This document shows, one piece after another, positions 18,442 through 36,949 of a stretch of DNA of 43,410 nt. The DNA comes from Actinomycetota bacterium (GTDB taxonomy: Bacteria; Actinomycetota; Acidimicrobiia; Acidimicrobiales; JAMDDE01), in contig JAMDDE010000044.1 of NCBI GenBank assembly GCA_023489235.1, forward strand, positions 2,027 through 45,436, read 5' to 3'. The notes under the pieces were generated by a model. It had not been told where the DNA came from and made no database searches. It saw only the letters and a program-made list of their open reading frames with translations. The position numbers and the translations under genes are program-made. Positions within the stretch are counted from its first letter, which is position 1. Each line of letters begins with the position of its first letter.

Positions 18442-18465
18442 CCAAATGAGTTGATTGGAGATCTC

Positions 18466-20049
18466 GTGTTCAAGGTACGATGGCTTGGCCGAGTACGTTT
18501 CAATGATGCATACGCCGTGCAGAAGGCTTTGCACGATTGGAGCCGTGATGACTATCTGCTTCTCTTGGAGCATGCTCATGTCTATACGATGGGGGTACGC
18601 GCCAAGGAGGACCACCTGTTAGCTCAGCCAGCAGCATTCGGTGCTGAACTGGTGAAAACGGATCGTGGGGGCGACATCACTTATCATGGTCCAGGTCAGC
18701 TCGTAGTTTATCCAGTTCTATCCCTACCTTGGAAGAAGGGGGTAGTTCCGGAGTATGTGCACGGTATGGAGCAAGTGGTGATAGATACTCTGGATGAACT
18801 AGGACTTCATGGAGCTGGCAGGCTCGAAGGGTATCCAGGTGTTTGGCTGGATACCGATGGAGAACGCCCTAGAAAGATTTGCGCTATCGGAGTCAGGATA
18901 TCCAGGGGACGGACAATGCACGGTCTTGCGTTGAACGTTGATCCGGATCTGTCCATGTTCACCCACATAGTGCCTTGTGGAATAAGCGACAAACCGGTTA
19001 CCTCCCTTGCTGCAGAGGGCGTGCGGGTGAGCATGGCTGACGTGGTGGAGATATTCGTGCGCAAGGCAGTTGATCGCTGGGCCAAGGGGCAAGAGGTTGA
19101 CTGTCAGTACCTCCAACCCATTAGGGGCGATCGGACGATGCCGCCTACCTCGCAGAACGAGAGCAGTAGAGGAACCGATACAGCTGTTGCCATCACTCGT
19201 CGTAAGCCTCCGTGGCTTAGGGCAGTGATGCACATGGGTCCTGGCTATCGTGCCGTGGATAGAACTGTGAAGAGGCTAGGACTCCACACCGTGTGCGAGG
19301 AGGCGGGATGCCCCAACATCTTCGAATGTTGGGGAGGAGGTACGGCTACCTTCATGATCAATGGAGAGAGATGTACCAGATCGTGCGCCTTTTGCATGGT
19401 TGACACAGCCAAACCGCTCCCCTTGGATCCAAAAGAGCCGGAGTCGGTAGCCGAAGCGGTGGTACGCATGGGGCTTAACTATGCCGTGGTAACCTCGGTG
19501 GCCAGAGATGACCTGCCGGATGGAGGCGCCTCTGGTTTTGCAGCCACTATCCGCAGCATCAGAGAGAAGTCTCCAAGTACTCTAGTCGAGGTTCTCGTTC
19601 CAGATTTCAAGGGGGACGACAGATCTCTCCAGGTAGTATTCGATGCTCGACCAGATGTGTTCAACCACAACCTGGAGACAGTGCTGGCTTTGCAGCGTTC
19701 AGTACGACCTTCAGCGTCCTATGCACGCAGCTTGTCCGTACTGGCTCGGGCGAAGCAGGTCGGTCTGACGACCAAGTCAGGTCTGATGGTGGGGTTGGGA
19801 GAGAGCTACGAAGAGGTGATTGGTGCGATTTCCGATCTTGCCTCAGTTGGCGTGGACATACTTACCGTTGGTCAGTATCTGCCTCCTAGTGCCAAACACA
19901 GGCCAGTGTCCAGGTGGTGGCATCCCGATGAATTCGAGCAGTTGAAAAGGGAGGCAGTGAGTATGGGTTTCTCTACGGTGATGGCTGCTCCTTTGGTACG
20001 GTCCAGCTACCATGCAAAAGAAACACTCTGGGCCGTTGAGTCCATGTAG
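18466..20049 (+). CDS. lipB-lipA: Fused octanoyltransferase-lipoyl synthase (LipB-LipA)
   Basis: One uninterrupted ORF carries both enzymes of endogenous lipoylation. Numbered from the track start, residues 1-215 are LipB: RGGDITYHGPGQLVVYP, catalytic K142 in RKICAIGVR and C176 in HIVPCGISDK. Residues 216-250 form a linker, and 251-532 are LipA, a radical-SAM enzyme with auxiliary-cluster cysteines C282/C287/C293 (CEEAGCPNIFEC), the SAM-cluster motif CTRSCAFC, and the C-terminal RSSYHA serine motif. LipB attaches octanoate from ACP to the E2 lysine; LipA inserts the two sulfurs. The track begins at TTG 18451, but GTG 18466 lies 5 bases after GGAG and is the better start. It follows the E2 gene closely, so cofactor synthesis and its target are co-expressed. 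Confidence 0.93.
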   Translation: MFKVRWLGRVRFNDAYAVQKALHDWSRDDYLLLLEHAHVYTMGVRAKEDHLLAQPAAFGAELVKTDRGGDITYHGPGQLVVYPVLSLPWKKGVVPEYVHGMEQVVIDTLDELGLHGAGRLEGYPGVWLDTDGERPRKICAIGVRISRGRTMHGLALNVDPDLSMFTHIVPCGISDKPVTSLAAEGVRVSMADVVEIFVRKAVDRWAKGQEVDCQYLQPIRGDRTMPPTSQNESSRGTDTAVAITRRKPPWLRAVMHMGPGYRAVDRTVKRLGLHTVCEEAGCPNIFECWGGGTATFMINGERCTRSCAFCMVDTAKPLPLDPKEPESVAEAVVRMGLNYAVVTSVARDDLPDGGASGFAATIRSIREKSPSTLVEVLVPDFKGDDRSLQVVFDARPDVFNHNLETVLALQRSVRPSASYARSLSVLARAKQVGLTTKSGLMVGLGESYEEVIGAISDLASVGVDILTVGQYLPPSAKHRPVSRWWHPDEFEQLKREAVSMGFSTVMAAPLVRSSYHAKETLWAVESM

Positions 20050-20104: not shown

Positions 20105-23100
20105 TCAAGTTACGAAGTACTTGGCTTGGGGGTGATGGCATATCAAGGCCGTGGTGGTCTGCTCAGGAAGCAATTGGAATCCATCGGTCAAGCCGACCCC
20201 AATACGATCAGCTTCCACCAGTTCCAATAGCTTGGCATTGTCTTCCAGATTGGGACACGCCGGGTAGCCGAATGAGTACCTTCCTCCCCGGTATCTCTGT
20301 CTGAACAGCCCGGCCAAAGTAGAGTCGTCTTCGTCAGCAAAACCCCATTCTTGCCGGATACGGGCGTGCCAATACTCTGCCAAGGCTTCGGTCATCTCCA
20401 CCCCTAGACCATGGAGGAGGAGATAGTCCCGGTAGTGGTTCTCGGAGAATAAAGCAGCAGTTTCCTTGGATACCCGATCCCCCATCGTCACTGCATGCAG
20501 AGCTACCCAATCCTCCTCCTCTGACTCCACTCCTCGGAAGAAGTCGGCCACGCATAGCCAAGGGTCTTCTTTCTGGCGGGGGAAACTGAACCTGAGCCGC
20601 TCTTTCCTTCGCGACTCGTCTTCCCAGATGATGAGGTCGTTCCCCTCGGAGTTGGCAGGGAGATAGGCCCACGCTACCTTGGGTATGAGTACTCCTTCGG
20701 ACTTGACCATCTCTAACTGCTCGTTCAGTACCGCGCGCACCCTCTGGTTCATGCTGCGAGCATCCTCGCCGGGGAGTGGTCGATACCCCCATTGGTTGCG
20801 GTAAAGAGCGGTTTCATTGAGGTAGGGAATGATCTCGTCAATTGATATTTCCTCGGTTACTCGGCTACCTACGAATGGAGGAGGGAATATGGGGTTGTCC
20901 TGTGAGACCTGAGGAGATCGCGTCTGTTTCCCCTCCCCTGTCGAGGAGCTGCTGTCGTAGCGGTCGCTGCTCAATCTGGAGGGAACCGTGCTGTCCGAAG
21001 GCTTACGTCCGAAATCAGGATCCACCCTCCCGCTCGAGCGCATCTCCATGAGCCTTTCCATGGTGGCCAAACCCTCGAATGCGTCCTTGCCGTAAAAGAC
21101 CCTTCCCTCGTAGATCTTGCGCAAGTCTCGTTCCACGAATGTCCTGGTGAGCGCTGCTCCACCAAGAATAACAGGGATCCTAGCGAGACCAAGGCGATTC
21201 AACTCCTCCAAGTTGTCCCTCATTACCAAGGTTGATTTGACCAACAGACCGCTCATACCAATGGCGTCTGCTCCAACCTCCTCCGCCTTCTTGGCCATCT
21301 CGCTGAGGGGTACCTTGATTCCTAAGTTGTACACACGATATCCATTGTTGGTGAGGATGATGTCCACCAAGTTCTTGCCTATGTCATGCACATCACCTGC
21401 TACGGTAGCAAGTACGACGGTGCCCTTTTGAGTTCCTTCGACCCTCTCCATCTTCGGTTCCAGATAGGAGACGGCTGCTTTCATCGTCTCGGCAGAGGCA
21501 AGCACGAATGGCAGTTGCATCTCCCCGGAGCCAAACAGCTCTCCTACTGTGCGCATGCCTGCGAGCAGGATGTCGCTTACTATCTCAAGAGGACTGTATC
21601 CTTTGTCCAAAGCTTCTTCTAGTTCTTTTTCAATACCTTCCTTGTTCCCATCTATTATGCGTTGCTCCAAACGTTTCTCAATGGGCCAATCAGCCGTTCC
21701 TTTGTTGGCAGATAGGCCGGTAGAGCGCTCCTCTCCTCCGAGATAGGAGAGAAGCTGAGCAAGTGGGTCATAGTTGTTGCTTCGTCGATCATAGATGAGA
21801 TCCAGACAGGTCTTGCGTACCTCCTCAGGTATCTTGTTCAAGGGAAGAATACGACTTGGGTTGAGTATGGCGGCATCAAGCCCAGCCTGTCTGCATTCGT
21901 GAAGAAAGACCGAGTTCAGCGCTTGACGTAAGTTGGCAGATAGTCCAAAGGAAACGTTGGATACTCCAATGATGGTATAAGCACCTGGTATCTCCGATTT
22001 TATCCTGGCTATCCCTTCAATGGTCTCCAATCCGTCACGTCGTGACTCCTCCATGCCAGTCGAGAGAGGAAGGACCAATGGATCGAAGAACAGATCGGAG
22101 TTGCTCAACCCGTATCGTCCAGTGGCTATGTTGGCTACCGCTTTGGCTATGGCAAGCTTCCGCTCCCCTGTACGAGCCTGTCCTTCGCTGTCGATGCAAG
22201 TGACCACTACTGCGGCACCGTACTCCTTAGCGAGAGACAACATGGCATCCAAACGGCTTCCTGGACCATCGCCTTCTTCGAGGTTAACGGAGTTGATGAT
22301 TGCCCTACCACCTATACGGCGAAGAGCTGCTTCGATTACCTCTGGTTCGGTCGAGTCGATCATCAAAGGCACCGGGGATTGAGTGGATAGACGGGACGAT
22401 ATCTCCGTCATGTCCTTCACTCCGTCGGCACCTGTATAGTCAACACAGAGATCTATGATGTGGGCTCCATCTTTTACCTGTTGGCGGGCGATGGAGACAG
22501 CTCGGTCGTAATCTCCGGAGAGCATGGCTTCACGGAAGCTCTTGGATCCGTTGGCATTGGCTCGTTCGCCCACTATCAAGAACGATGTCTCCTGTCGGAA
22601 CGGAACACTCGTGTAGAGAGAGGATGCAGCAGGCTCTCGGCTCGGGGCTCGGTGCTTCAAAGTAGAGTTCTTACAAGATCTGACGACGGCACTGAGGTGC
22701 TCTGGGGTCGTACCGCAGCATCCACCAACTATGGATACTCCTAGATCTTCGACGAAGCTCTTCAAGTAGTCGGCTAGCTCGTCGGCAGTGAGGTCGTAGT
22801 GCATGTGCCCTGCGACAACTTTGGGTAGTCCAGCATTGGGTTGGCAAGCTACTGGCAGTGTAGAGTGAGTGGTCAGGTATCGTACTGCTTCGCGCATCTC
22901 CGATGGGCCGGTAGAACAGTTGATTCCTATTGCATCAGGGTGCATTGCCTCCAAGGTAGTAAGGACGGCTGATATGTCCGTTCCTGGAAGCATTTGCCCA
23001 GTTGATTCCAGGGTTACCTGGACTTGAATAGGAATTTGACGCTGAGCTGCTCTCATTGCTCCGCGGCATGCAGCAATTGCCGCTTTGGCCTGCAACAGAT

Positions 23101-23635
23101 CGAATACCGTTTCAATCAAGAACAGATCTACTCCTCCTGCAAGCAGAGCATTGGCCTGGACTTCATAGGCTTGGCGCAGCTCCTCGAAGCTTACCTGTCC
23201 CAAAGAAGGCAGCTTAGTACCTGGCCCTATACTTCCAGCCACCCATCTTTGGCCGCCCTCTTTCCCCAAGGAATTTATTGCTTGGCGAGCAAGACGCGCT
23301 GCTTGGAGGTTGAGCTCACTAGTGCGCTCGGCCAAACCATACTCCTCCAAGACGACAGCATTAGCCCCGAAAGTGTTGGTTTCGATTACCTCAGCTCCAG
23401 CCTCCAGGAATGCACGGTGCAACTTGTAGACCACATCTGGCTTGGTGATCGTCAATATCTCATTGCAGCCCTCTAAGTGCTTCCCTCCGAAGTCTTCTGA
23501 GGTCAAGTTGGCCAATTGCAAGTTAGTGCCCATTGCTCCGTCAAAGACCACCAGGCGGGAGGTGATAGCTTCTAGATAGGACTCTTGGGTTGCATGAGTG
23601 CCTGTTGGATGCTGAGTCGAGTTGGTAGTGGCCAT
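20105..23635 (-). CDS. metH: Cobalamin-dependent methionine synthase
   Basis: A full-length 1176-residue MetH that moves methyl from methyltetrahydrofolate to homocysteine through cobalamin. The homocysteine domain (about 20-330) has zinc ligands in GINCS and GGCCGTTP; the folate domain starts at SFLIVGERANANGSK; the B12 cap and Rossmann domains (about 640-890) contain DVHDIGKN; the reactivation domain begins near EISIDEIIPYL and contains YRGGRYSFGYPACPNLED. A Ser-rich insertion of about 60 residues separates the B12 and reactivation domains. I see no cobalamin riboswitch in the short upstream gap. It is divergent from a cobalamin adenosyltransferase gene. Confidence 0.97.
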   Translation of the reverse strand: MATTNSTQHPTGTHATQESYLEAITSRLVVFDGAMGTNLQLANLTSEDFGGKHLEGCNEILTITKPDVVYKLHRAFLEAGAEVIETNTFGANAVVLEEYGLAERTSELNLQAARLARQAINSLGKEGGQRWVAGSIGPGTKLPSLGQVSFEELRQAYEVQANALLAGGVDLFLIETVFDLLQAKAAIAACRGAMRAAQRQIPIQVQVTLESTGQMLPGTDISAVLTTLEAMHPDAIGINCSTGPSEMREAVRYLTTHSTLPVACQPNAGLPKVVAGHMHYDLTADELADYLKSFVEDLGVSIVGGCCGTTPEHLSAVVRSCKNSTLKHRAPSREPAASSLYTSVPFRQETSFLIVGERANANGSKSFREAMLSGDYDRAVSIARQQVKDGAHIIDLCVDYTGADGVKDMTEISSRLSTQSPVPLMIDSTEPEVIEAALRRIGGRAIINSVNLEEGDGPGSRLDAMLSLAKEYGAAVVVTCIDSEGQARTGERKLAIAKAVANIATGRYGLSNSDLFFDPLVLPLSTGMEESRRDGLETIEGIARIKSEIPGAYTIIGVSNVSFGLSANLRQALNSVFLHECRQAGLDAAILNPSRILPLNKIPEEVRKTCLDLIYDRRSNNYDPLAQLLSYLGGEERSTGLSANKGTADWPIEKRLEQRIIDGNKEGIEKELEEALDKGYSPLEIVSDILLAGMRTVGELFGSGEMQLPFVLASAETMKAAVSYLEPKMERVEGTQKGTVVLATVAGDVHDIGKNLVDIILTNNGYRVYNLGIKVPLSEMAKKAEEVGADAIGMSGLLVKSTLVMRDNLEELNRLGLARIPVILGGAALTRTFVERDLRKIYEGRVFYGKDAFEGLATMERLMEMRSSGRVDPDFGRKPSDSTVPSRLSSDRYDSSSSTGEGKQTRSPQVSQDNPIFPPPFVGSRVTEEISIDEIIPYLNETALYRNQWGYRPLPGEDARSMNQRVRAVLNEQLEMVKSEGVLIPKVAWAYLPANSEGNDLIIWEDESRRKERLRFSFPRQKEDPWLCVADFFRGVESEEEDWVALHAVTMGDRVSKETAALFSENHYRDYLLLHGLGVEMTEALAEYWHARIRQEWGFADEDDSTLAGLFRQRYRGGRYSFGYPACPNLEDNAKLLELVEADRIGVGLTDGFQLLPEQTTTALICHHPQAKYFVT

Positions 23636-23719: not shown

Positions 23720-24307
23720 ATGAGGATCTATACAAGACGTGGGGATGATGGTACTACGAGCATTCGTCAGGGTGGGCGAGTAAGGAAAGACTCATCCTTG
23801 ATCGAACTGAACGGAACTATCGATGAAGCTCAAGCTGCAATAGGTTTAGCTCGTTCGCACCTCGAAACAGGATCGGAGCTTGCTCCTTTGCTGATCGAGT
23901 TGGAACACGAGTTGTGGATGGTCATGGCCGAGGTGGCAAGAGGAACCGATCGAGAGAATGAAGGAGGTGGCGGCAGATCGGGTAGTCAGCTCTCTCGAAG
24001 CTCTGTCCGTTCGGATGAAGGCAAGGTGAGCCAGGACATGATCGTTTCCCTGGAGAGGATGATAGATAGGGCTACTGAGCACTTCATTATGCCCAAAGAA
24101 TTTGTATTACCTGGCGAAACAGATGTCTCGGCAGCTTTGGATTTTGCGAGAACGGTGGTCAGACGTGCGGAGAGGTGGGCTGTGAGGGCGAGAGATGAAG
24201 GTCTTCTTCCTGGAGAAAGTTTAGTAGGAGCCTATCTGAACAGGTTATCTGATCTTTTGTGGTCCCTTGCTCGTTGGGAGCAGCATGACTCCTCTGCGGC
24301 AGAGTGA
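23720..24307 (+). CDS. PduO-type cob(I)alamin adenosyltransferase
   Basis: A 195-residue ATP:cob(I)alamin adenosyltransferase that makes adenosylcobalamin. N-terminal YTRRGDDGTTS, central FVLPGETDVSAALDFART and RRAERW, and C-terminal YLNRLSDLLWSLARWE are the PduO-type ATP and corrin motifs. A Gly/Ser/Glu-rich stretch at about residues 72-102 is an insertion relative to typical members. Its divergent pairing with metH groups two B12-linked genes. Confidence 0.95.
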   Translation: MRIYTRRGDDGTTSIRQGGRVRKDSSLIELNGTIDEAQAAIGLARSHLETGSELAPLLIELEHELWMVMAEVARGTDRENEGGGGRSGSQLSRSSVRSDEGKVSQDMIVSLERMIDRATEHFIMPKEFVLPGETDVSAALDFARTVVRRAERWAVRARDEGLLPGESLVGAYLNRLSDLLWSLARWEQHDSSAAE

Positions 24308-26039: not shown

Positions 26040-26136
26040 TGATCGGTCACATTTGCTAACTATGCGTTATATAGCCTATGACCAGGGAGAGTGTACCCCA
26101 AGAGTTGCAGGTTGACCACTAAGGAGTAGGCACTGT

Positions 26137-28089
26137 TTGGAGTTTGAGAGTCGTCTGAAAGCTTTGCCGACCGTAGAGGAGATCATGGCCAGGAGCAAGG
26201 GAGAGAACTTCCCTGTGGCCATGAAGATTCTTCCGCGCCATTACGGGCATTGTTTGCAGGCAATCTATGGGTTTGCTCGTCTGATTGATTGTATAGGGGA
26301 CGAGATTCCCTATCCAGCGTCCGAACGATTGGCCGTGCTGCAAATGCTCAAGGAGGGAATAGCTACTCCATTTGCACAGTCCGAAACAGCTCATCCTGAA
26401 GGATTGTGGTACTGGCCTGGCTTTGTCAACCAAGCACCTACCATTCGTTCCATCCTGGATGCGACCTGGTTGGTGAAGAAAGAGAAGGGTTTGGAGACTG
26501 AGTTGTTCGTCAAGCTGATAGAGGCGAACATTCAAGATCAAATAGTATCCAGGTACTCTAGCTTTGAAGACCTGCTTGGCTACTGTGACCTCTCGGCGAA
26601 TCCAATAGGCAGGATGGTGCTTGGCATATTCGGTGTTACCAACCCTCAGGTACTCCCTCTCTCTGATGCTGTCTGCACTGCTTTGCAGATAGTAGAGCAT
26701 CTCCAAGACGTGAGAGAAGATGCACTCAATGGACGTATATACCTGCCGAAAGAGGACATGGACCTCTTTGGGGTGAGCGAGGATGAGCTTGTTGGTCCAG
26801 CATCATCCCCTTCCTTGAAGGCATTGGTGGCATACGAGGCTGAGCGAGCATCTCACCTGTTGAGATCAGGAAATGAACTAGTGAGTCTCCTGAATGGATG
26901 GGCTAAAGTTGCAGTGGCTGGCTTTGTTGCTGGGGGGCTAGCTGCGCTTGATGCTATTAGGGGTGCCGGCTATGACGTGCTGGCCAAGGAGTGCAAGCCT
27001 ACTAGGAGAATGACCCTCAAACATCTTGCCGAGCCATTTTTTGCCGTGCCGTTCCGGTACCTTGCAACTGAGTCCAGTGGAGGTGAAGGTGGGGATGATG
27101 GGAGCGAGGGTGGAGAGAGCGGCGAGCACGGGGGGTCCAAGAGCAACCTTCTCGGGAATGTTGGTAGCACAGTTGAAAGAGCTCACTCTGGGACTGGTGA
27201 AACCGAAGCCCAGGTTTCACTGGAACATCGCCATTCAGCTACTCATACCACCTTGGCTGATGCCTATCAGATATGTCTTGCTGTGACAGCAGAGCAGGCA
27301 AGGAACTTCTACTACGGCATAAGACTGCTCGATCCCGAGAGGCGGTCAGCCATGGCTGCTCTATACGCTATGGCCCGCAGGATCGATGATGTTGTCGACT
27401 GCTTCGATGAGACGAAGATCAAGTTGGATCGCTTGCAGGAGATCCGTCAAAGCCTGAGTACACTGAGCGTAAGCTCCTCTGACCCTGTCGAAGCGGCCCT
27501 TGCAGATGTACTACAGAGGTATCCGGTACCAATCGCAGCTCTTTTCGAGTTGGTGGATGGGTGCGAGGCAGATGCGCTGGGGAGGCAATACAACAGTTTC
27601 GATGAGCTCGTAGGCTACTGCCAACTTGTAGCAGGTTCTGTAGGGAGGATGACCATAGGCGTATTAGGGGTCAGTGAACCGGAGCGAGGGTCCAATCTAG
27701 CAAATAGTTTGGGTACAGGGTTGCAGCTCGTTAACATACTTCGGGATGTGGTGACCGATAAGGACGAACTCGGTCGGGTTTATCTACCAGCTGATGACCT
27801 GAGACGGTTCGGCTGCTTGCCGGATCTCTCTGGTCCAGAAATCGCTCTAGAGAGAGTGGTATCGCTGGAAGCGGCTCGTGCGAGATTCTACATAGATGAA
27901 GGTTTAGGAGTTCTCTCCTTGATGGATGCCCGTTCAAGGGCTTGCGTAGCGGCTATGGCAGGTATCTACGAGAGGCTGCTTGCAATGGTGGAGAGAGATC
28001 CTGGTGTGGTGCTGCATGGAAGAATACGCCTTCCTTCCTGGAAGAAAGGCGTAGTGGCAGCCCGAAGTCTGTTAGGAGCTGTTCTATGA
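26137..28089 (+). CDS. hpnC-hpnD: Fused squalene-synthesis enzyme HpnC-HpnD
   Basis: A 650-residue protein made of two complete trans-isoprenyl diphosphate synthase folds. Residues 10-305 are HpnC-like (KGENFPVAMKILP; metal motifs DCIGD at 51-55 and DVREDALNGRIYLP at 191-204). Residues 372-645 are HpnD-like (EQARNFYYGIRLLDPERRSAMAALYA; DDVVD at 417-421 and DVVTDKDELGRVYLP at 537-551). A Gly/Ser/Glu-rich linker (about 311-370) joins them. In the HpnCDE route HpnD makes presqualene diphosphate from two farnesyl diphosphates, and HpnC converts it to hydroxysqualene. Fusing them would let the intermediate pass within one protein. TTG start 10 bases after AAGGAG; the stop overlaps the hpnE start as ATGA. 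Confidence 0.93.
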   Translation: MEFESRLKALPTVEEIMARSKGENFPVAMKILPRHYGHCLQAIYGFARLIDCIGDEIPYPASERLAVLQMLKEGIATPFAQSETAHPEGLWYWPGFVNQAPTIRSILDATWLVKKEKGLETELFVKLIEANIQDQIVSRYSSFEDLLGYCDLSANPIGRMVLGIFGVTNPQVLPLSDAVCTALQIVEHLQDVREDALNGRIYLPKEDMDLFGVSEDELVGPASSPSLKALVAYEAERASHLLRSGNELVSLLNGWAKVAVAGFVAGGLAALDAIRGAGYDVLAKECKPTRRMTLKHLAEPFFAVPFRYLATESSGGEGGDDGSEGGESGEHGGSKSNLLGNVGSTVERAHSGTGETEAQVSLEHRHSATHTTLADAYQICLAVTAEQARNFYYGIRLLDPERRSAMAALYAMARRIDDVVDCFDETKIKLDRLQEIRQSLSTLSVSSSDPVEAALADVLQRYPVPIAALFELVDGCEADALGRQYNSFDELVGYCQLVAGSVGRMTIGVLGVSEPERGSNLANSLGTGLQLVNILRDVVTDKDELGRVYLPADDLRRFGCLPDLSGPEIALERVVSLEAARARFYIDEGLGVLSLMDARSRACVAAMAGIYERLLAMVERDPGVVLHGRIRLPSWKKGVVAARSLLGAVL

Positions 28090-29576
28090 CCGCCAGGGTG
28101 ATAGTTGTTGGTGGAGGTCTTGCCGGGATGGCAGCAGCGCTCGAGCTAGCCGAAAGAGGTTCGCAGGTTACCCTTCTGGAGATGAGGCCTATGTTCGGCG
28201 GTATGACTAGGTCTTTGGAGAAAGAGGGAATGCTAGTCGACAATGGGCAGCATGTGTTCATGAAGTGTTGTAGTGCCTATATCGACTTCCTGCGTCGAAT
28301 TGGCTCTCTGGATGGTGTCTACTTACAAGACCGTCTTGAGATACCAGTAGTACGCCCGGGGGGCAGAGTAAGTTGGATACGCAGGGATAGTTTGCATCCA
28401 CCACTGCACTTGTTGAGAACTCTTTTTCAGTACTCCTATCTCGACTGGAGAGGAAAGTTGAAGGTTGCTCAGGTGATGAGCTCGCTATCCCGAATGGATC
28501 CATCGGACAAGTCCTTGGATGATCACTCATTTGGATCGTGGTTGTCCGCTCGAGGCAAAGAGAATAATTCTGCCAACAGTCTCTTCGACCTCTTGGTTCG
28601 CTCTACGCTCAATCTTCCCCCCGAAGAGGCGTCCTTGCAGATGGTGACCAAGGTAGTGAGAACTGGCTTCTTGTCTCAGGTGGATGGTGCGGATCTAGGT
28701 TGGTCGAATCTACCTCTGTCAGAGCTTCACGGACGCCGAGCAGCGAGAGCGCTCATGTCCAGAGATGTAGAGATGCTCGCTTCCACTAAGGTGAACTCCA
28801 TAGAGGCAGGAGCTGGAGGAGAGCCCGTGGTGAACCTCGCCAATGGTAGGAGTGAGAAGGCTGACTCCGTGGTCGTAGCCGTGGATCACCGTACAGCTCA
28901 GCGGCTCTTACCTCGCGGAGCTATATATGGTCAGGAAAGACTAAGTTCACTGGGAACCTCTCCGATCCTGTCGGTTCATGTTCTTTATGATCGCAAGGTA
29001 ATGGACTATCCATTCATGGCATCTTTGGATACCTCCATCCAATGGGTGTTCGATAGATCGGCTAGTCTAGAGGTTGCAGGTTCGACGACAGTGCCGGGGG
29101 CACAGTACTTAACCATTCCTATCTCAGCTGCCTATCCTCTTATCTCCAAGAGAACTAACTCGATCATATCCAAGGTACTTCCTGCCCTGGAAGCTCTACT
29201 TCCCCGAGCCTCCAGAGCAGTAGTTCTCCGTGCTACGGTTACACGTGAAGCTGCAGCCACCTTTCGGGCCTCACCACGTAGCGCCGAGTTAAGGCCTGGT
29301 TCGACCACTCGCTTTGAGGGACTGTTTGTTGCTGGAGCATGGTGTGATACTGGTTGGCCTGCAACCATGGAGGGTGCTGTGCGTTCGGGATTTGCGGCGG
29401 CTTCAGCTGTAGCCAAGTTCTTAGGCAGTCGTCATGAAGAAGGACTTAGTCCATCCGATGAGCCATCTACGGATGCTTTGGCTGTCGGGAACCTAGCTGC
29501 CGGGAATGGGTCGGAAGAAAAAAGTTGTCAAGGTGGGCAAGCTCGACAGAAAACTAAGCTTAAGGAGTCAGCATGA
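28086..29576 (+). CDS. hpnE: Hydroxysqualene dehydroxylase HpnE
   Basis: An FAD-dependent amine-oxidase/phytoene-desaturase-like enzyme of 496 residues that reduces hydroxysqualene to squalene. The FAD motif VIVVGGGLAGMAAALELAE is at the N-terminus and the family C-terminal motif VAGAWCDTGWPATMEGAVRSG is present. The track extends it to 27942, but the natural start is ATG 28086, overlapping the upstream stop as ATGA; the 48 extra residues are a shadow of hpnCD. About 50 residues past the last motif form a Ser/Gly/Lys-rich tail. Third step after the HpnC-HpnD fusion. Confidence 0.94.
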   Translation: MTARVIVVGGGLAGMAAALELAERGSQVTLLEMRPMFGGMTRSLEKEGMLVDNGQHVFMKCCSAYIDFLRRIGSLDGVYLQDRLEIPVVRPGGRVSWIRRDSLHPPLHLLRTLFQYSYLDWRGKLKVAQVMSSLSRMDPSDKSLDDHSFGSWLSARGKENNSANSLFDLLVRSTLNLPPEEASLQMVTKVVRTGFLSQVDGADLGWSNLPLSELHGRRAARALMSRDVEMLASTKVNSIEAGAGGEPVVNLANGRSEKADSVVVAVDHRTAQRLLPRGAIYGQERLSSLGTSPILSVHVLYDRKVMDYPFMASLDTSIQWVFDRSASLEVAGSTTVPGAQYLTIPISAAYPLISKRTNSIISKVLPALEALLPRASRAVVLRATVTREAAATFRASPRSAELRPGSTTRFEGLFVAGAWCDTGWPATMEGAVRSGFAAASAVAKFLGSRHEEGLSPSDEPSTDALAVGNLAAGNGSEEKSCQGGQARQKTKLKESA

Positions 29577-30826
29577 TCGCTTATGCCATTGAGGGGACCG
29601 AGAAACTTGTGGCTAAAGGGCATGATACGGAGAAAAGAACAGCTACTGCCCCTGCGCTCCCAGCAGTGGTGTACAAGGTCAAAGCTGTGCTCGATCCTGT
29701 TCTGGCAGAGGCTATAGGTCGCTTGGCCCCATTGGCTCGTCAGGTGGTGAAGTACCATTTGGGTTGGGTAGATGAACACGGCAATGAACAGGACAAGTCT
29801 TCGGGTAAGTTCATTCGGCCTGCTTTGGTGGTGCTTTCCACAGAGGCTTGCTACGCTGATTGGGAGATAGCACTTCCAGGGGCCGCAGCAATTGAGTTAG
29901 TGCACAACTTCTCTTTGCTCCATGATGACGTCATCGACGTGGATCGCACTAGACGTCACAGAAGTACGGCTTGGGCTCAGTTCGGAGTTGGAGCAGCAGT
30001 AATCGCTGGAGATGCGTTGATGGCCCTGGCCCCGAGGCTGTTGATAGAGGCAGGTCATCCCCAGGCAGCGTATGTCCTCTTGGAGGCAACCTCTCAAATG
30101 ATAGATGGACAGTGCTTCGACATGGATTTCGAGCACCGTAATGAGGTTAGCTTTGGCGAGTGCTTGACCATGGCAGCAGGCAAGACAGGTGCATTGCTTG
30201 GATGCGCTGCTTCTCTTGGTGCGGTGATGGCCGGTGCACCTGATGCCACAGTCGAAGGCTTGCGCCGGTATGGAGAGCAAGTTGGGTTGGCCTTTCAAGC
30301 AGTAGATGATCTATTGGGCATCTGGGGTGATCCTGCTCGTACAGGTAAGCCTGTCTATAGCGATCTGAGACAAGGCAAGAAGACTATTCCATTGGTGGCA
30401 GCTTTATCCTCTGGATGTCCTGAAGTCGAAGAGCTCGAGCATATCCTCAACAAGCAGAGGGAAGGGGATGGTAGGGATAGCGCTCCTGCTTCCTTGGAAG
30501 GTTTGGAGGAAGGTCACTTGAGTGAAGATCCGGTACTTTCGACGACAAATCTTGGACCGAAGGTGGAACGAGACTTTGCCCATGACGGTTCATTCTTCGA
30601 CGAACGAGGTGAACTCGAGAAGGGTTCACCAGGTTCTCTTAGTGATGAAGAGCTAGCTAGGGCAGCTCAGTTGATCGAAAAGTGTGGTGGTAGAGAGGTA
30701 GCGGCGGAGCTTGCCTTGAGTTGCATGGATCTATCAGTTGGCGAGCTGGACAGGCTTCAGATCGCCCCTCACGTACGTGAGCAGTTGATCGACATGGCCA
30801 CCTTTGTGGTTAACAGGGAGCTCTGA
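29573..30826 (+). CDS. Polyprenyl diphosphate synthase
   Basis: A 417-residue trans-polyprenyl synthase of the farnesyl/geranylgeranyl type, supplying the precursor for squalene. The first Asp-rich motif is LLHDDVIDVDRTRRH (about 114-128), the second DDLLGIWGD (about 243-251), with KPVYSDLRQGKKT between them and the C-terminus. Streptomyces carries a homologue at the same place. The C-terminal region has an insertion of about 55 Ser/Glu/Asp-rich residues (about 288-345) before the conserved SDEELARAAQLIE helix. ATGA overlap with hpnE. Chain length is not readable with confidence. Confidence 0.93.
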   Translation: MIAYAIEGTEKLVAKGHDTEKRTATAPALPAVVYKVKAVLDPVLAEAIGRLAPLARQVVKYHLGWVDEHGNEQDKSSGKFIRPALVVLSTEACYADWEIALPGAAAIELVHNFSLLHDDVIDVDRTRRHRSTAWAQFGVGAAVIAGDALMALAPRLLIEAGHPQAAYVLLEATSQMIDGQCFDMDFEHRNEVSFGECLTMAAGKTGALLGCAASLGAVMAGAPDATVEGLRRYGEQVGLAFQAVDDLLGIWGDPARTGKPVYSDLRQGKKTIPLVAALSSGCPEVEELEHILNKQREGDGRDSAPASLEGLEEGHLSEDPVLSTTNLGPKVERDFAHDGSFFDERGELEKGSPGSLSDEELARAAQLIEKCGGREVAAELALSCMDLSVGELDRLQIAPHVREQLIDMATFVVNREL

Positions 30827-30828
30827 GC

Positions 30829-32937
30829 ATGGCAGCTACCCTGTCCTCGGGTGCCTCCTTGGCTGATGACACTCCTTTGTCCAACAGGGACGACACTACT
30901 CTGCCCAACAACGCACAGAGTATTCGAATCCATGACCGCCCATCTATAACTTCACAAACTATCTTCATGGATGCACAAAGGACCTTGAGACGAGCTGTCG
31001 ATCACTTGCTCAGTCTTCAGGACCCGACCGGCTTTTTCAAAGGCAATTTGGAGACCAACGTGACTATTGAGGCCGAGGACTTGATGTTACGACAGATCCT
31101 CGGCATCAGGACTGATGAGCTGACCAGGGAAACTGCAGCTTGGATACGTGATCACCAGCGTTCTGATGGCACTTGGGCCAACTATTATGGAGGCGTAGCG
31201 GATTTGTCCACCACCGTCGAGGCTTACTTTGCTCTGGCGATGGCGGGGGATTCCAAAGAGTCACCTCATATGCGTAAAGCTGCAGAATACATCTTGGAGG
31301 CTGGAGGTATCGAGGCCACAAGAGTGTTCACCCGCATCTGGCTGGCTCTTTTCGGCTTGTGGCCGTGGGAGAAGCTTCCTGTTCTCCCCCCAGAGATCAT
31401 GTTCTTGCCGAAATGGCTTCCCCTCAACATCTACGACTTCGCTTGCTGGGCTCGCCAGACCATGATTCCATTGACCATAGTCTCCTCTTATAGACCAGTT
31501 TTCCCCTCTCCTTGCTCGTTGGAGGAGTTATACACGGGTCAACCCGTGCGTAGTTCGTTATCCCTGACTACCCCAGAAGGATGGTTCTTGCTCCTGGACA
31601 GGATACTTGGGGTATACGAGCGTTCCCCTGTGAAGCCCTCCAGGGAACTGGCTCTTTCTCTTGCTGAACAGTGGATCGTTAGGAGACAGGAGGCAGATGG
31701 ATCGTGGGGAGGTATACAACCTCCGTGGGTTTACTCATTGATAGCACTCTACCTTCGAGGGTATCCCCTTGACCATCCAGTTATGGCTGCTGGCATAAAG
31801 GGGCTTGATGCCTTTACGGTAAGAGAAAATGGAATGCGGTGGTTGGAGGCGTGCCAATCACCTGTATGGGATACAGCTCTGGCCATAACTGCTCTGTTAG
31901 ATGCCGGCCTACCCCCTGGTCATGAAGGTATACTGTCTGGCGTCAGGTGGCTCCTTTCCAAGCAAATTACCCGATCGGGCGATTGGTCGCTTCGTCGTCC
32001 TCGCCTAGAGCCAGGTGGCTGGGCATTTGAATTTGCTAACGACAACTATCCGGATGTCGACGATACCGCCATTGTGGTTATCGCATTGCGGAAATTTATT
32101 CAAGCTGCAGAGAGGGTTGGCAGTAGTAGCAGCTATGAGGCGACAGATCGTGGTATGAGGGAGTCCTATGGAACTAGTGGCAGAACTCCTGGGTCCAGCT
32201 CCTTTCATGATCTCGAGAAATTAGTTGCGAAGGCAAAGCACTCCATAGAGCTGGGCAGGGCTTGGGCAGTAGGTATGCAATGCAAGTCAGGAGGTTGGGG
32301 TGCTTTTGATGCAGACAATACGAATACAGCGATCAGGAAGCTTCCCTTCTCCGATTTTGGTGAAGTAATAGATCCTCCTAGTGCGGATGTCACTGCCCAC
32401 GCATTGGAGATGCTCTCTGATCAGCAGGAAAGGTTTAGCAAGGTTGTAGCTAACGGGCTACGATTTCTCCTTCGCGAACAGGAGGAGGACGGTTCTTTTT
32501 TCGGTCGATGGGGCAGCAACTACATCTATGGTACTTCAGCTGCAATTTTGGCTATGGCATTGCTGCCAGGAGAGACTCCGAGATCAGCTTGCACAAAAGC
32601 AGCGGAGTGGTTGATAGACCACCAGAATGCCGATGGAGGTTGGGGAGAGGACATGCGCTCCTATGACGATCCAACGATGAAGGGCCGTGGAGAGTCCACT
32701 CCATCGCAGACTGCGTGGGCGCTACTGGGTTTGGTAGCTGCTTCCAAGTTAGGGGAGGCTGCTGATAGAGGGGTCAGATGGCTCATTTCGCATCAGAGAG
32801 GTGACGGAAGTTGGGATGAGCCGTACTTTACCGGTACAGGATTTCCTGGCGATTTTTACATCAACTACCATCTCTATCGCCTAGTCTTCCCTGTAATGGC
32901 TCTGGCTCGTTTCTTGGCTGCTAGTGAGGGTAGATAG
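30829..32937 (+). CDS. shc: Squalene-hopene cyclase
   Basis: A 702-residue class II triterpene cyclase making hopene or hopanol from squalene. The protonating motif PDVDD is at about residue 406, and QW repeats are scattered (for example QEADGSWGGIQP, QNADGGWGED, QRGDGSWDEPYFTGTGFPGDFY). The C-terminal GTGFPGDFYINYHLYR is typical. There is an N-terminal extension of about 45 residues and a Ser-rich loop near residues 425-462, both unusual for the family. It starts two bases after the polyprenyl synthase stop. Confidence 0.97.
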   Translation: MAATLSSGASLADDTPLSNRDDTTLPNNAQSIRIHDRPSITSQTIFMDAQRTLRRAVDHLLSLQDPTGFFKGNLETNVTIEAEDLMLRQILGIRTDELTRETAAWIRDHQRSDGTWANYYGGVADLSTTVEAYFALAMAGDSKESPHMRKAAEYILEAGGIEATRVFTRIWLALFGLWPWEKLPVLPPEIMFLPKWLPLNIYDFACWARQTMIPLTIVSSYRPVFPSPCSLEELYTGQPVRSSLSLTTPEGWFLLLDRILGVYERSPVKPSRELALSLAEQWIVRRQEADGSWGGIQPPWVYSLIALYLRGYPLDHPVMAAGIKGLDAFTVRENGMRWLEACQSPVWDTALAITALLDAGLPPGHEGILSGVRWLLSKQITRSGDWSLRRPRLEPGGWAFEFANDNYPDVDDTAIVVIALRKFIQAAERVGSSSSYEATDRGMRESYGTSGRTPGSSSFHDLEKLVAKAKHSIELGRAWAVGMQCKSGGWGAFDADNTNTAIRKLPFSDFGEVIDPPSADVTAHALEMLSDQQERFSKVVANGLRFLLREQEEDGSFFGRWGSNYIYGTSAAILAMALLPGETPRSACTKAAEWLIDHQNADGGWGEDMRSYDDPTMKGRGESTPSQTAWALLGLVAASKLGEAADRGVRWLISHQRGDGSWDEPYFTGTGFPGDFYINYHLYRLVFPVMALARFLAASEGR

Positions 32938-33083: not shown

Positions 33084-33107
33084 ACTTTGTATAGGAAGGG
33101 GTGGCGG

Positions 33108-34676
33108 GTGAGATCTCGTATGTCCTTCATGTTAGAGGCTCCCAGCAAAGGTGACCCTGTAGTCTTCGCTCCTATGCGCATCGAAGCATATGCGCTCATG
33201 ATGGCTATGCGCAGTTGCAAGATAGTTCGTACGGGGATGGGGCCTCACCGAGCAAAGCGTACAGTTTCACGAATATCCGATGTTCTAGCTGAAGCTCCTG
33301 CTGTTGTGGTTGCTGGTTTCTGCGGTGGAGTGACTGAAGGGTTGAAAGTCGGCGATGTGGTGGTGGCGAGCTCGATCACTGTTTTGGATGCCGAGAGTGG
33401 GGAGAGGGATCCTATCGATCTTCCTGATGCGTCGCTGTTGGTAAGAGCACTGAGAAGAGCGGGTCATAAAGTACACGTAGGGAACATCGCGAGCACCGAT
33501 CACATAGTCCTTGGGGATGAGCGTATCCAAATAGAGAAAAAAGGTGCTTTGGCCGTCGATATGGAGTCTGCTTGGCTTGTTCCCGAAAGGAAATCGGGAG
33601 CTTTTGCCGTAGTACGAGTTGTGTTGGACACAGGGGATGAAGAACTTCTAAGTCCCGCGTTAGCAGTCAGGGCGTTGCGAGCCTCCAAGGTATTGATGTC
33701 TGTAGGAAGGGTGGTTCAAGACTGGACCGAGACCACCAGACCTCGCAGAGTCCTAGCTGCTAAGCCACGTTCTTTTTGTGCTGGGGTTGAGCGTGCTATT
33801 GAGTGCGTGGAGCGTGCCCTAGCAGCATTTGGTCCTCCTATATATGTTCGCAAACAAATAGTTCATAATCAAGCAGTTGTCTCTTCGTTGGAGGACAAAG
33901 GGGCTGTGTTCGTAGATGAACTCGATGAGGTCCCCGACGGGGCCAGGGTGGTTTTCTCTGCTCATGGCGTAGCCCCGGAGGTGAATGCTGAAGCAGAGGC
34001 CAAACACTTGGAGGTGATCGATGCTACTTGCCCACTGGTAGCCAAGGTGCACCAAGAAGCGCGTAGGCTTGGTAGTTCAGGCCATGAAGTCATTTTAATT
34101 GGCCATCGTGGCCATGAGGAGACCGTAGGCACCATGGGGCATCATCCTGGTATGCACTTGGTGAGCACCGTGGAGGAGGTGGAGATGTTGCCGATAGCTC
34201 CAGGATCCAAAGTGGCGCTTTTGTCTCAGACCACTATGGCCGTTGACGAAGTAACGAACATAGCAAACCAGATAGCCAAGAAGTTTCCTCTGCTCGCCGG
34301 GCCAGGGCCGAAGGACATCTGTTATGCCACACAGAATCGTCAGGAGGCAGTCAAAGCATTGGCGCAGGAGTGCGAGGTCGTCTTGGTGGTAGGTTCTCAG
34401 AACTCGTCCAATTCCAAGAGGTTGGTGGAAGTGGCACAGAGAAGTGGCTGTAAGGCGTATTTGATAGAGAATGAGATGAGCATTGACTTGGATTTGATCA
34501 AGGATGCTGCCTCTGTAGGCGTCACTGCCGGGGCATCCGCCCCTGAAGAGCTGTTCCAAAGAGTAGTGCGGGCAATTAGTGCTTTAGGACCGACCACCTT
34601 CGAGGAACGTGAAGTGGTCGATGAAGAGGTCAATTTCTCTCTTCCGGCAAAGGTGCGAGCATGGCCATACCGTTGA
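33108..34676 (+). CDS. hpnG-ispH: Fused adenosylhopane nucleosidase-like domain and IspH (HMBPP reductase)
   Basis: One ORF with two enzymes. By track numbering, residues 23-215 are a nucleoside-phosphorylase-like domain (VVAGFCGGVTEGLKVGDVVVAS, GALAVDMESAW) matching HpnG, which removes adenine from adenosylhopane. Residues 220-515 are IspH, the last enzyme of the MEP pathway, with its three cluster cysteines in SFCAGVERAI (C231), IDATCPLVAKVH (C315) and DICYATQNRQ (C412), plus ETVGTMGH and GSQNSSNS. There is almost no linker. The track starts at TTG 33087, but GTG 33108 lies about 7 bases after AGGAAGGGG and fits better. It sits between shc and hpnH, where Streptomyces has a stand-alone hpnG. 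Confidence 0.93.
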   Translation: MRSRMSFMLEAPSKGDPVVFAPMRIEAYALMMAMRSCKIVRTGMGPHRAKRTVSRISDVLAEAPAVVVAGFCGGVTEGLKVGDVVVASSITVLDAESGERDPIDLPDASLLVRALRRAGHKVHVGNIASTDHIVLGDERIQIEKKGALAVDMESAWLVPERKSGAFAVVRVVLDTGDEELLSPALAVRALRASKVLMSVGRVVQDWTETTRPRRVLAAKPRSFCAGVERAIECVERALAAFGPPIYVRKQIVHNQAVVSSLEDKGAVFVDELDEVPDGARVVFSAHGVAPEVNAEAEAKHLEVIDATCPLVAKVHQEARRLGSSGHEVILIGHRGHEETVGTMGHHPGMHLVSTVEEVEMLPIAPGSKVALLSQTTMAVDEVTNIANQIAKKFPLLAGPGPKDICYATQNRQEAVKALAQECEVVLVVGSQNSSNSKRLVEVAQRSGCKAYLIENEMSIDLDLIKDAASVGVTAGASAPEELFQRVVRAISALGPTTFEEREVVDEEVNFSLPAKVRAWPYR

Positions 34677-35665
34677 GGCAGAATTTGAGGATTGGAGCTT
34701 ACCTCTTGCGTCAGAGGCTTGCTTCCAACAAAAAGTTCCCGTTGATAGTGGAGCTGGAGCCGCTCTTTGCCTGCAACTTGTCCTGCCCCGGATGCGGGAA
34801 GATAAAGTATCCTACGGAAATCTTGCGTAAGCGGATGTCGGTGGAAGAGGCAGTTAATGGTGTGATCTCCTCTGGGGCTCCCATGGTTTCCATAGCTGGT
34901 GGTGAGCCGCTGGTCCACCCAGAGATACACAAGATCACAGAGGAGTTGATCAAACGTAAGAAGTTTGTTTATCTGTGCACCAATGCCATGCTGCTCAAGC
35001 GTAAGATCGATCTGTTCAAGCCCTCTCCTTACTTCTCCTGGGTAATCCATATAGATGGGATGCGGGATCGTCATGATCAGTCCGTAGCTCGCAAAGGAGC
35101 ATTCGACAAGGCTGTAGAGGCTATCAAGCTAGCCAAGTCCAAAGGATTCCGCACCACCACTAACAGCACCTTCTTTTCCAATGATTCCCCAGAGGAGGTG
35201 CGTGAGTTGTTGGACTTCCTGAACGACGAGCTGGGCGTGGATGCCATGATGATCTCCCCTGCATACGCGTATGACAAGGCCTCCGACCAAGAACACTTTT
35301 TAGGAGTGGAGGAGACCAGAGCTCTATTCTCCAAGGTATTTGCTGACGGGAAGCGCAAGCGATGGCGACTTAACCATACCCCTTTATTCCTGGACTTTCT
35401 GGAAGGGAAGGTTGACTACGAGTGTACAGCATGGGGAATACCCAGTTTTTCCATATTCGGCTGGCAAAAACCGTGTTACTTGATGGCCGATGGTTACGTC
35501 TCTACCTACAAGGAACTGGTAGAAGAGACCAACTGGGATGCGTACGGTAGGGGAAAGGATCCACGCTGTGCCAACTGTATGGCTCACTGTGGGTATGAGC
35601 CGACTGCAGTAGCCGCCACTATGAGTTCGCTCAAAGAGTCATTGCGTGCAGTACGCGGTTATTGA
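34661..35665 (+). CDS. hpnH: Adenosylhopane synthase HpnH (radical SAM)
   Basis: A 334-residue radical-SAM enzyme that adds 5'-deoxyadenosine to the hopanoid side chain. The cluster motif CNLSCPGC is at about residues 38-45, followed by GGEPLVHPEI. The C-terminal GWQKPCYLMADGY and CANCMAHCGYEPTA segments match HpnH. It begins inside the last codons of the hpnG-ispH fusion (16-base overlap). With shc and the HpnG domain it completes the route from squalene to extended hopanoids, apart from later transamination steps that are not here. Confidence 0.96.
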   Translation: MAIPLRQNLRIGAYLLRQRLASNKKFPLIVELEPLFACNLSCPGCGKIKYPTEILRKRMSVEEAVNGVISSGAPMVSIAGGEPLVHPEIHKITEELIKRKKFVYLCTNAMLLKRKIDLFKPSPYFSWVIHIDGMRDRHDQSVARKGAFDKAVEAIKLAKSKGFRTTTNSTFFSNDSPEEVRELLDFLNDELGVDAMMISPAYAYDKASDQEHFLGVEETRALFSKVFADGKRKRWRLNHTPLFLDFLEGKVDYECTAWGIPSFSIFGWQKPCYLMADGYVSTYKELVEETNWDAYGRGKDPRCANCMAHCGYEPTAVAATMSSLKESLRAVRGY

Positions 35666-35685: not shown

Positions 35686-35757
35686 GCACCAATCATGGTC
35701 CCTATGTAGGCACCAATCATGGTTCTTACGAGAGCACCAATCATGGCATTGGATTCC
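35686..35757. repeat. Three 24-bp direct repeats in the hpnH/acyltransferase convergent gap
   Basis: GCACCAATCATGG occurs at 35686, 35710 and 35734, exactly 24 bases apart, each followed by about 10 variable bases. The core contains a small inverted repeat ACCA-ATCA-TGGT. The third copy supplies the stop codon of the opposite-strand acyltransferase gene. Because 24 bases is eight codons, one minus-strand frame reads through as HDWC-containing octapeptides. Too short and too tightly spaced for CRISPR. Confidence 0.85.
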
Positions 35758-36949
35758 CATCCTGTTTGCAGTAGGAACGGCTGTTTTGATCGATAAGGTG
35801 GTTGATCGCGTCATCCAGCAAGGACTCCGCATCTGAACGACTGAGGTAACGGGCATGAAGGGTAAGAGTTGACCTTCCCCCTTGGAGTCTGACCATGGCA
35901 AAAGCGACCGCTGAACGGCCTCGAGCTACTGGGTATAGTTCTGCAGACAGTATCCCCTTAAGGCTTATCCTCCCCAAGTTGGTCAGCAAGAACGTATCGG
36001 ATAAGCGACGAGATATAGGAGCGAGAACAGGGAGCCAAGTTGGAGCATGTGCGAACTCCCACGGCATTTCTCTCCTGGACATAGCCTTTTCAATCTCGGA
36101 TCTGGCATCTTCGATGCGGTCAATGTCTATCCGAACGTAACTAGCCGTGTTTTCTCCAACTATGTAGGAAGGGATGCTTACGGTCACTCCAGTTCTCTTG
36201 CATCCACCACCCTTGGATCTGTTGTACGAGCAAATTGCCCGTAGGCATGCTGCCGCTACGGTTGCTGTAGGGGAACGACCGATGAGCGGTAGTTCTCGAG
36301 CGACAAAGGAGTCGCTAGAGGGAAGAGGTTTGGATGGAACTACCGCTGTTGTCGATTTGGCCAATCGAACAAGGTAATTCCAGGGAATCAAGGGGGGCTT
36401 TACAAGGTCGTTTCTTTGTGTCGAGCCTTGTGTCGAATGGCTCTTAGGTATGACTATTCTATCTATGTCCTCTCCACAAAGTACCTTGGCTACAGCAATG
36501 GCGTGATGGCCATCTAGAGCAGCATGGTGGGCAGCGAGAGTGAAAAAACGACCATCAGGTGCTACGGCAACTCGTATGGGGGGCTCGATGCTCAAGTCAA
36601 ATCTGCTCACCTCGGATAGAGGCATACTATTCGGTGTAGAACTTTCAAGTATTCTGACTGTTGGCATTTGTCCAGGTTGCCAAGTAATTTTGCGTGACCT
36701 TTTGTGTAGTCTTGCCCTAATTATGGGGAAGCGATCGGCCAACAGAGAGATGCGTCGTTCCAACAAGGCAGCTATGTCTGTAGTACTTTCAGGCCAATAA
36801 GCTCTGTTCAGATGGAACAGTCCTGCTATGGTCCAGTTGGTTTGTCGATCGGGATGACGAAGAATGGCTAGGGATTGCCGACTTGGGGGAGTCGGTAGAT
36901 CCATCTCCTGGAGACTGAAGTTGTTGAATAACTTTCGTTCCCTAGTCAT
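35741..36949 (-). CDS. HHxxxDG acyltransferase / condensation-domain-like protein
   Basis: A 402-residue cytosolic protein. The one clear motif is AAHHAALDGHHA (near residue 137), the HHxxxDG of CoA-dependent acyltransferases, PapA-type enzymes, wax-ester/DGAT enzymes and NRPS condensation domains. Later SVSIPSYIVGENTAS and DTFLLTNLGRI segments resemble the second half of that fold, where a strand plus a DFGWG-like region would be; no DFGWG is visible. It is 64 bases downstream of the AftD gene on the same strand and convergent with hpnH, so its substrate could be an envelope glycan, a lipid or a hopanoid. I cannot decide. No Shine-Dalgarno is obvious. Confidence 0.75.
   Translation of the reverse strand: MTRERKLFNNFSLQEMDLPTPPSRQSLAILRHPDRQTNWTIAGLFHLNRAYWPESTTDIAALLERRISLLADRFPIIRARLHKRSRKITWQPGQMPTVRILESSTPNSMPLSEVSRFDLSIEPPIRVAVAPDGRFFTLAAHHAALDGHHAIAVAKVLCGEDIDRIVIPKSHSTQGSTQRNDLVKPPLIPWNYLVRLAKSTTAVVPSKPLPSSDSFVARELPLIGRSPTATVAAACLRAICSYNRSKGGGCKRTGVTVSIPSYIVGENTASYVRIDIDRIEDARSEIEKAMSRREMPWEFAHAPTWLPVLAPISRRLSDTFLLTNLGRISLKGILSAELYPVARGRSAVAFAMVRLQGGRSTLTLHARYLSRSDAESLLDDAINHLIDQNSRSYCKQDGNPMP

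Follow-up and report, generated by a model that had tools for sequence, protein, structure and literature searches.

Squalene is the precursor of bacterial hopanoid lipids. Its synthesis from farnesyl diphosphate (FPP) via presqualene diphosphate (PSPP) and hydroxysqualene, catalyzed by HpnD, HpnC and HpnE, is established (Pan et al. 2015, cited in PMC12583986). Fusion of hpnC with hpnD has also been reported: a 2017 study (PMC5462960) described fused hpnCD genes in Acidobacteria of subdivision 2 and obtained BLAST matches to fused counterparts in Actinopolyspora, Blastococcus saxobsidens and Rhodospirillum centenum. These are single genes of about twice the size that encode HpnC followed by HpnD and that lie in an hpnCD-hpnE cluster. 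A literature search by name found no functional study of HpnCD, and one further use of the term hpnCD was as shorthand only.

A gene of the same description is present in a genome of the actinobacterial order Acidimicrobiales, where a single 650-amino acid open reading frame (ORF) encodes HpnC and then HpnD with hpnE adjoining. Positions given below refer to the window, the whole 43,410-nucleotide stretch of DNA that was analyzed. A preliminary description of this DNA had named an earlier description of the fusion as a ground for refutation; by that standard novelty falls with the 2017 publication, and the gene is a new example of a published fusion type rather than a new kind of fusion. Our main reading, to which we assign a probability of about 0.83, is that the gene encodes a genuine two-domain HpnC-HpnD enzyme with both activities, the domains having been fused in this order by means of an indel and a linker.

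The fused gene and its two domains

The fused gene occupies positions 26137-28089 of the forward strand and has no internal stop codon. Translation would begin at a TTG at 26137, located 10 nt downstream of an AAGGAG (26121-26126, forward strand) that from its sequence is the likely ribosome-binding site, and would end at the stop codon at 28087-28089; the stop-to-stop frame spans 657 amino acids with no stops. Besides this ORF, no other gene of the SQS/PSY type was found in the genome, which is 93% complete.

The HpnC domain comprises residues 18-297 (26188-27027, forward strand) and matches positions 2-262 of the 267 positions in the NCBIfam HpnC profile TIGR03464 with 387.1 bits, well above the curated equivalog cut-off of 250.45. 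Its nearest solved structure is the HpnC structure 4hd1 (E=2.9e-39). The first Asp-rich motif is at D51-x3-D55 (26287-26301, forward strand) and the second at D191-x3-D195 within EHLQDVRED (26707-26721, forward strand), the latter having the EHxQD form that is common to actinobacterial HpnC relatives. The domain also carries an 18-amino acid insertion, EGLWYWPGFVNQAPTIRS (26398-26451, forward strand), that is absent from 24 aligned relatives.

The HpnD domain comprises residues 384-646 (27286-28074, forward strand), with homology to relatives reaching up to about residue 373, and matches positions 2-266 of the 267 in the NCBIfam HpnD profile TIGR03465 with 373 bits, again above the curated equivalog cut-off (278.6). 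Both Asp-rich motifs are present, the first at D417-x3-D421 (27385-27399, forward strand) and the second at D537-x3-D541 in NILRDVVTD (27745-27759, forward strand), which retains the NILRD form (N533, R536, D537 and D541). Phytoene and dehydrosqualene synthases are the nearest solved structures.

Between the two domains is a linker of 62 amino acids (residues 310-371; 27064-27249, forward strand) that is rich in Gly, Ser, Glu and Thr (14 G, 10 S, 9 E and 6 T), a composition from which it is inferred to be flexible and disordered. There is no in-frame ATG or GTG inside the linker. The closest codons in this frame that could serve as starts are CTG at 27220, TTG at 27253 and GTG at 27283, and no obvious ribosome-binding site was seen upstream of any of the three.

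The structural part of the preliminary description agrees with these results. The single 650-residue ORF has matching coordinates and a frame that is open throughout, the two full-length folds with both Asp-rich motifs in each are confirmed by the HpnC and HpnD profiles and by the motifs themselves, and the assignment of the halves is upheld by the paralogue-specific forms EHLQDVxED (HpnC) and NILRDVxxD (HpnD), each of which has been kept. The linker described there as roughly 60 residues of Gly, Ser and Glu is likewise present and is also Thr-rich.

Separate genes in relatives and the origin of the fusion

A survey of 397 genomes of the order gave 86 with a match at E <= 1e-40. Adjoining but separate hpnC and hpnD genes, with hpnC first, were seen at 67 distinct loci, which represent the order, its phylum and a few additional phyla, as well as in further members of the order. 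Among about 80 loci checked, only the window and one other locus (L127) are fused, which rules out an order-wide tendency to fuse these genes. None of 12 loci from Chloroflexi, Ignavibacteria, Armatimonadetes and other groups is fused, with 10 of them carrying both genes as separate ORFs, and an Azospirillum plasmid locus in which both halves are close together was rejected as a fusion for the same reason.

The separate HpnC and HpnD proteins of the order and of same-phylum relatives resemble the window in gene order, in motifs and in an identity of roughly 40-55% per half, and in ten clusters examined hpnE then follows as it does in the window. They differ in being encoded by two ORFs that lie in different frames, mostly overlap and have no linker. 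The HpnC-first, HpnD-second arrangement of the fusion is the gene order of relatives, which supports this part of the preliminary description. Its accompanying proposal, that the fusion originated when a stop codon was lost, is not supported. In all actinobacterial relatives checked that have separate genes, hpnD is in the -1 frame relative to hpnC, and at most actinobacterial junctions examined the hpnD start and the hpnC stop overlap as NTGA (ATGA, GTGA or TTGA). Since hpnD of these relatives lies in a different frame, read-through of the hpnC stop codon enters the wrong frame, and stop-codon loss is ruled out. Given parent genes that overlap in different frames, the fusion instead requires a net frame-changing indel and the gain of about 60 linker codons.

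Both halves of the fusion branch among the separate genes of the order in phylogenetic trees. The second fused locus, L127 (G140:C48:1-3538), belongs to a different family of the order and encodes the two domains within a single 726-amino acid open frame in the same arrangement. It is a probable sister sequence of the window fusion, differing in that overall identity is 37% and in that its linker is shorter, unlike that of the window, and contains an in-frame Met. A tree of the concatenated domains places the two as sisters with moderate support (SH-aLRT 95.9, UFBoot 90) and the HpnD tree does so as well, which suggests that a single origin of both fusions is likely. Two independent fusions within the order, with no common fused ancestor, constitute a rather unlikely account by comparison, but one that draws on several observations: the linkers are unalike, UFBoot reaches only 90 on the concatenation, and the HpnC tree alone does not recover the two as sisters, grouping the window with a relative having separate genes (L066) and placing L127 next. 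Long branches lead to both the window fusion and L127. No match was found in the other genomes surveyed from the family of L127, and the family of the window is represented in the sample by one genome.

Continuity of the frame and integrity of the HpnD half

The frame differences among relatives also bear on whether the single ORF could be a sequencing or assembly artefact, in which a single-base indel within the linker has joined two separate genes. If so, the true end of hpnC would lie at 27284 (frame +1) or close to 27070 (frame +2), and hpnD would start at TTG 27253 or GTG 27283. The -1 frame and NTGA overlaps of relatives speak for this reading, as does the ordinary HpnD N-terminus that a start at TTG 27253 would yield. 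Frame +1 is moreover open from 27011 to 27281, through the linker, where its coding score equals that of the real frame; codon statistics cannot settle the frame within the linker as frames 0 and +1 are both coding-like. The openness of frame +1 across the linker is, however, largely a by-product of codons rich in Gly, Ser and Glu. The in-frame fraction of G+S+E+D in the linker is 0.53 versus 0.42-0.59 in low-complexity segments from intact proteins encoded elsewhere in this genome, namely the polyprenyl synthase, squalene-hopene cyclase and HpnE tail segments, which are insertions relative to relatives, and MetH and PduO-type segments, which were chosen by eye. The +1 frames of these segments behave alike: they are hydrophobic, contain 1-2 stops and score close to neutral. 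That no obvious ribosome-binding site precedes either TTG 27253 or GTG 27283 also counts against a separate hpnD. As the linker resembles low-complexity segments of the same genome, and as a second, separately assembled genome also contains the fusion, we consider an artefact improbable and the fusion to be probably real.

A real fused ORF might still fall short of a plain two-step enzyme if its HpnD half were drifting or changed in activity. This half has changes at 9 of 68 columns that are invariant in 24 relatives (the relatives themselves have 0-4), as compared with 1 of 44 such columns in the HpnC half, and one model gives it a terminal branch of 2.03, where the median is 0.37. Loss or change of activity is nevertheless very improbable, for a second model puts the branch at only 0.73, several of the changed sites also vary in a broader HpnD sample, the universally conserved D417, D418, D421, Q530, N533, R536, D537, D541, Y549 and P551 are all retained, and hpnE, shc and hpnH are intact in a genome that yielded no further gene for squalene or presqualene synthase. 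We read the HpnD half as evolving somewhat faster with its predicted function kept, and a pseudogene is rejected because the motif residues that are universal in the broader sample are present.

The hopanoid cluster and comparison with known systems

The genes around the fusion (all on the forward strand) form a complete hopanoid cluster, of which the fused gene is the only visible putative source of PSPP and hydroxysqualene. The start codon of hpnE, encoding hydroxysqualene dehydroxylase (28086-29576; TIGR03467, 388.3 bits), overlaps the stop codon of the fusion as ATGA. It is followed by genes for a polyprenyl diphosphate synthase with a 59-amino acid acidic insertion (29573-30826; PF00348), squalene-hopene cyclase (shc, 30829-32937; TIGR01507, 726.7 bits), a protein that joins an HpnG-like phosphorylase domain with an IspH domain (33087-34676; profile matches and comparison with relatives) and the adenosyl-hopene transferase HpnH (34661-35665; TIGR03470, 525.4 bits).

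Several of these genes have features of their own. The best model for the polyprenyl synthase is that of a family 2 encapsulin cargo polyprenyl transferase, at 378.5 bits, which is below the cut-off of 450. The HpnG-like/IspH gene is also a single ORF in three relatives (L048, L050 and L052), the HpnG-like gene stands alone in other relatives, and a second IspH homologue is present at G000:C75:5460-6362. Of the papers searched, the only one to contain the words hpnG, ispH and fused was PMC5462960, in which the last word describes hpnCD and GC columns. Low-complexity segments rich in Gly, Ser, Glu and Asp occur in the genes at 29573-30826, 30829-32937, 28086-29576, 23720-24307 and 20105-23635, and the insertions in the polyprenyl synthase (59 amino acids), the cyclase (28 amino acids) and the HpnE tail (25 amino acids) are absent from most relatives. 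Such segments are possibly a genome-wide habit. Elsewhere in the window, a LipB-type lipoyl ligase/transferase domain is fused to a LipA-type lipoyl synthase (18451-20049, forward strand); about half of 58 relatives match this fusion end to end in one place, and it looks old in the order. A 402-amino acid ORF on the reverse strand (35741-36949) has no NCBIfam matches.

Reading the gene as a two-domain HpnC-HpnD enzyme, homology suggests that the C-terminal HpnD half would convert two FPP to PSPP and that the N-terminal HpnC half would convert PSPP to hydroxysqualene. The product of the presumably translationally coupled hpnE would then reduce hydroxysqualene to squalene, which would be the substrate of squalene-hopene cyclase, whose gene lies two genes downstream of hpnE. 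A flexible linker would hold the two halves together, with 1:1 stoichiometry and co-localization as plain consequences. Substrate channelling of PSPP, the benefit suggested in the preliminary description, is possible but hypothetical. The fusion would have arisen from an overlapping hpnC-hpnD pair in this actinobacterial order by a frame-changing indel and the gain of a low-complexity linker. This would probably have preceded the split between the lineages of the window and L127. A more elaborate proposal, in which an overlapping different-frame pair became a PSPP-channelling enzyme with two active sites through an indel and a de novo disordered linker, with similar segments in neighbouring enzymes, appears distinctly doubtful.

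When compared with the published descriptions of the fusions in PMC5462960, the window fusion belongs to a different lineage and has an approximately 60-amino acid G/S/E/T-rich linker. It extends the known hpnCD fusions by one lineage. It also corrects the proposed model of origin, in that fusion in this phylum requires an indel and a linker and not loss of a stop. The added lineage suggests that distant bacteria have repeatedly joined HpnC and HpnD or have retained the joined form, which is in line with a benefit of having the synthase and the consumer of PSPP together. A single polypeptide that carries FPP through PSPP and beyond is also a property of the eukaryotic-type squalene synthase. 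While the eukaryotic-type enzyme has one active-site domain and makes squalene with NADPH, the window fusion has two paralogous domains, lacks the reduction step and relies on a separate HpnE.
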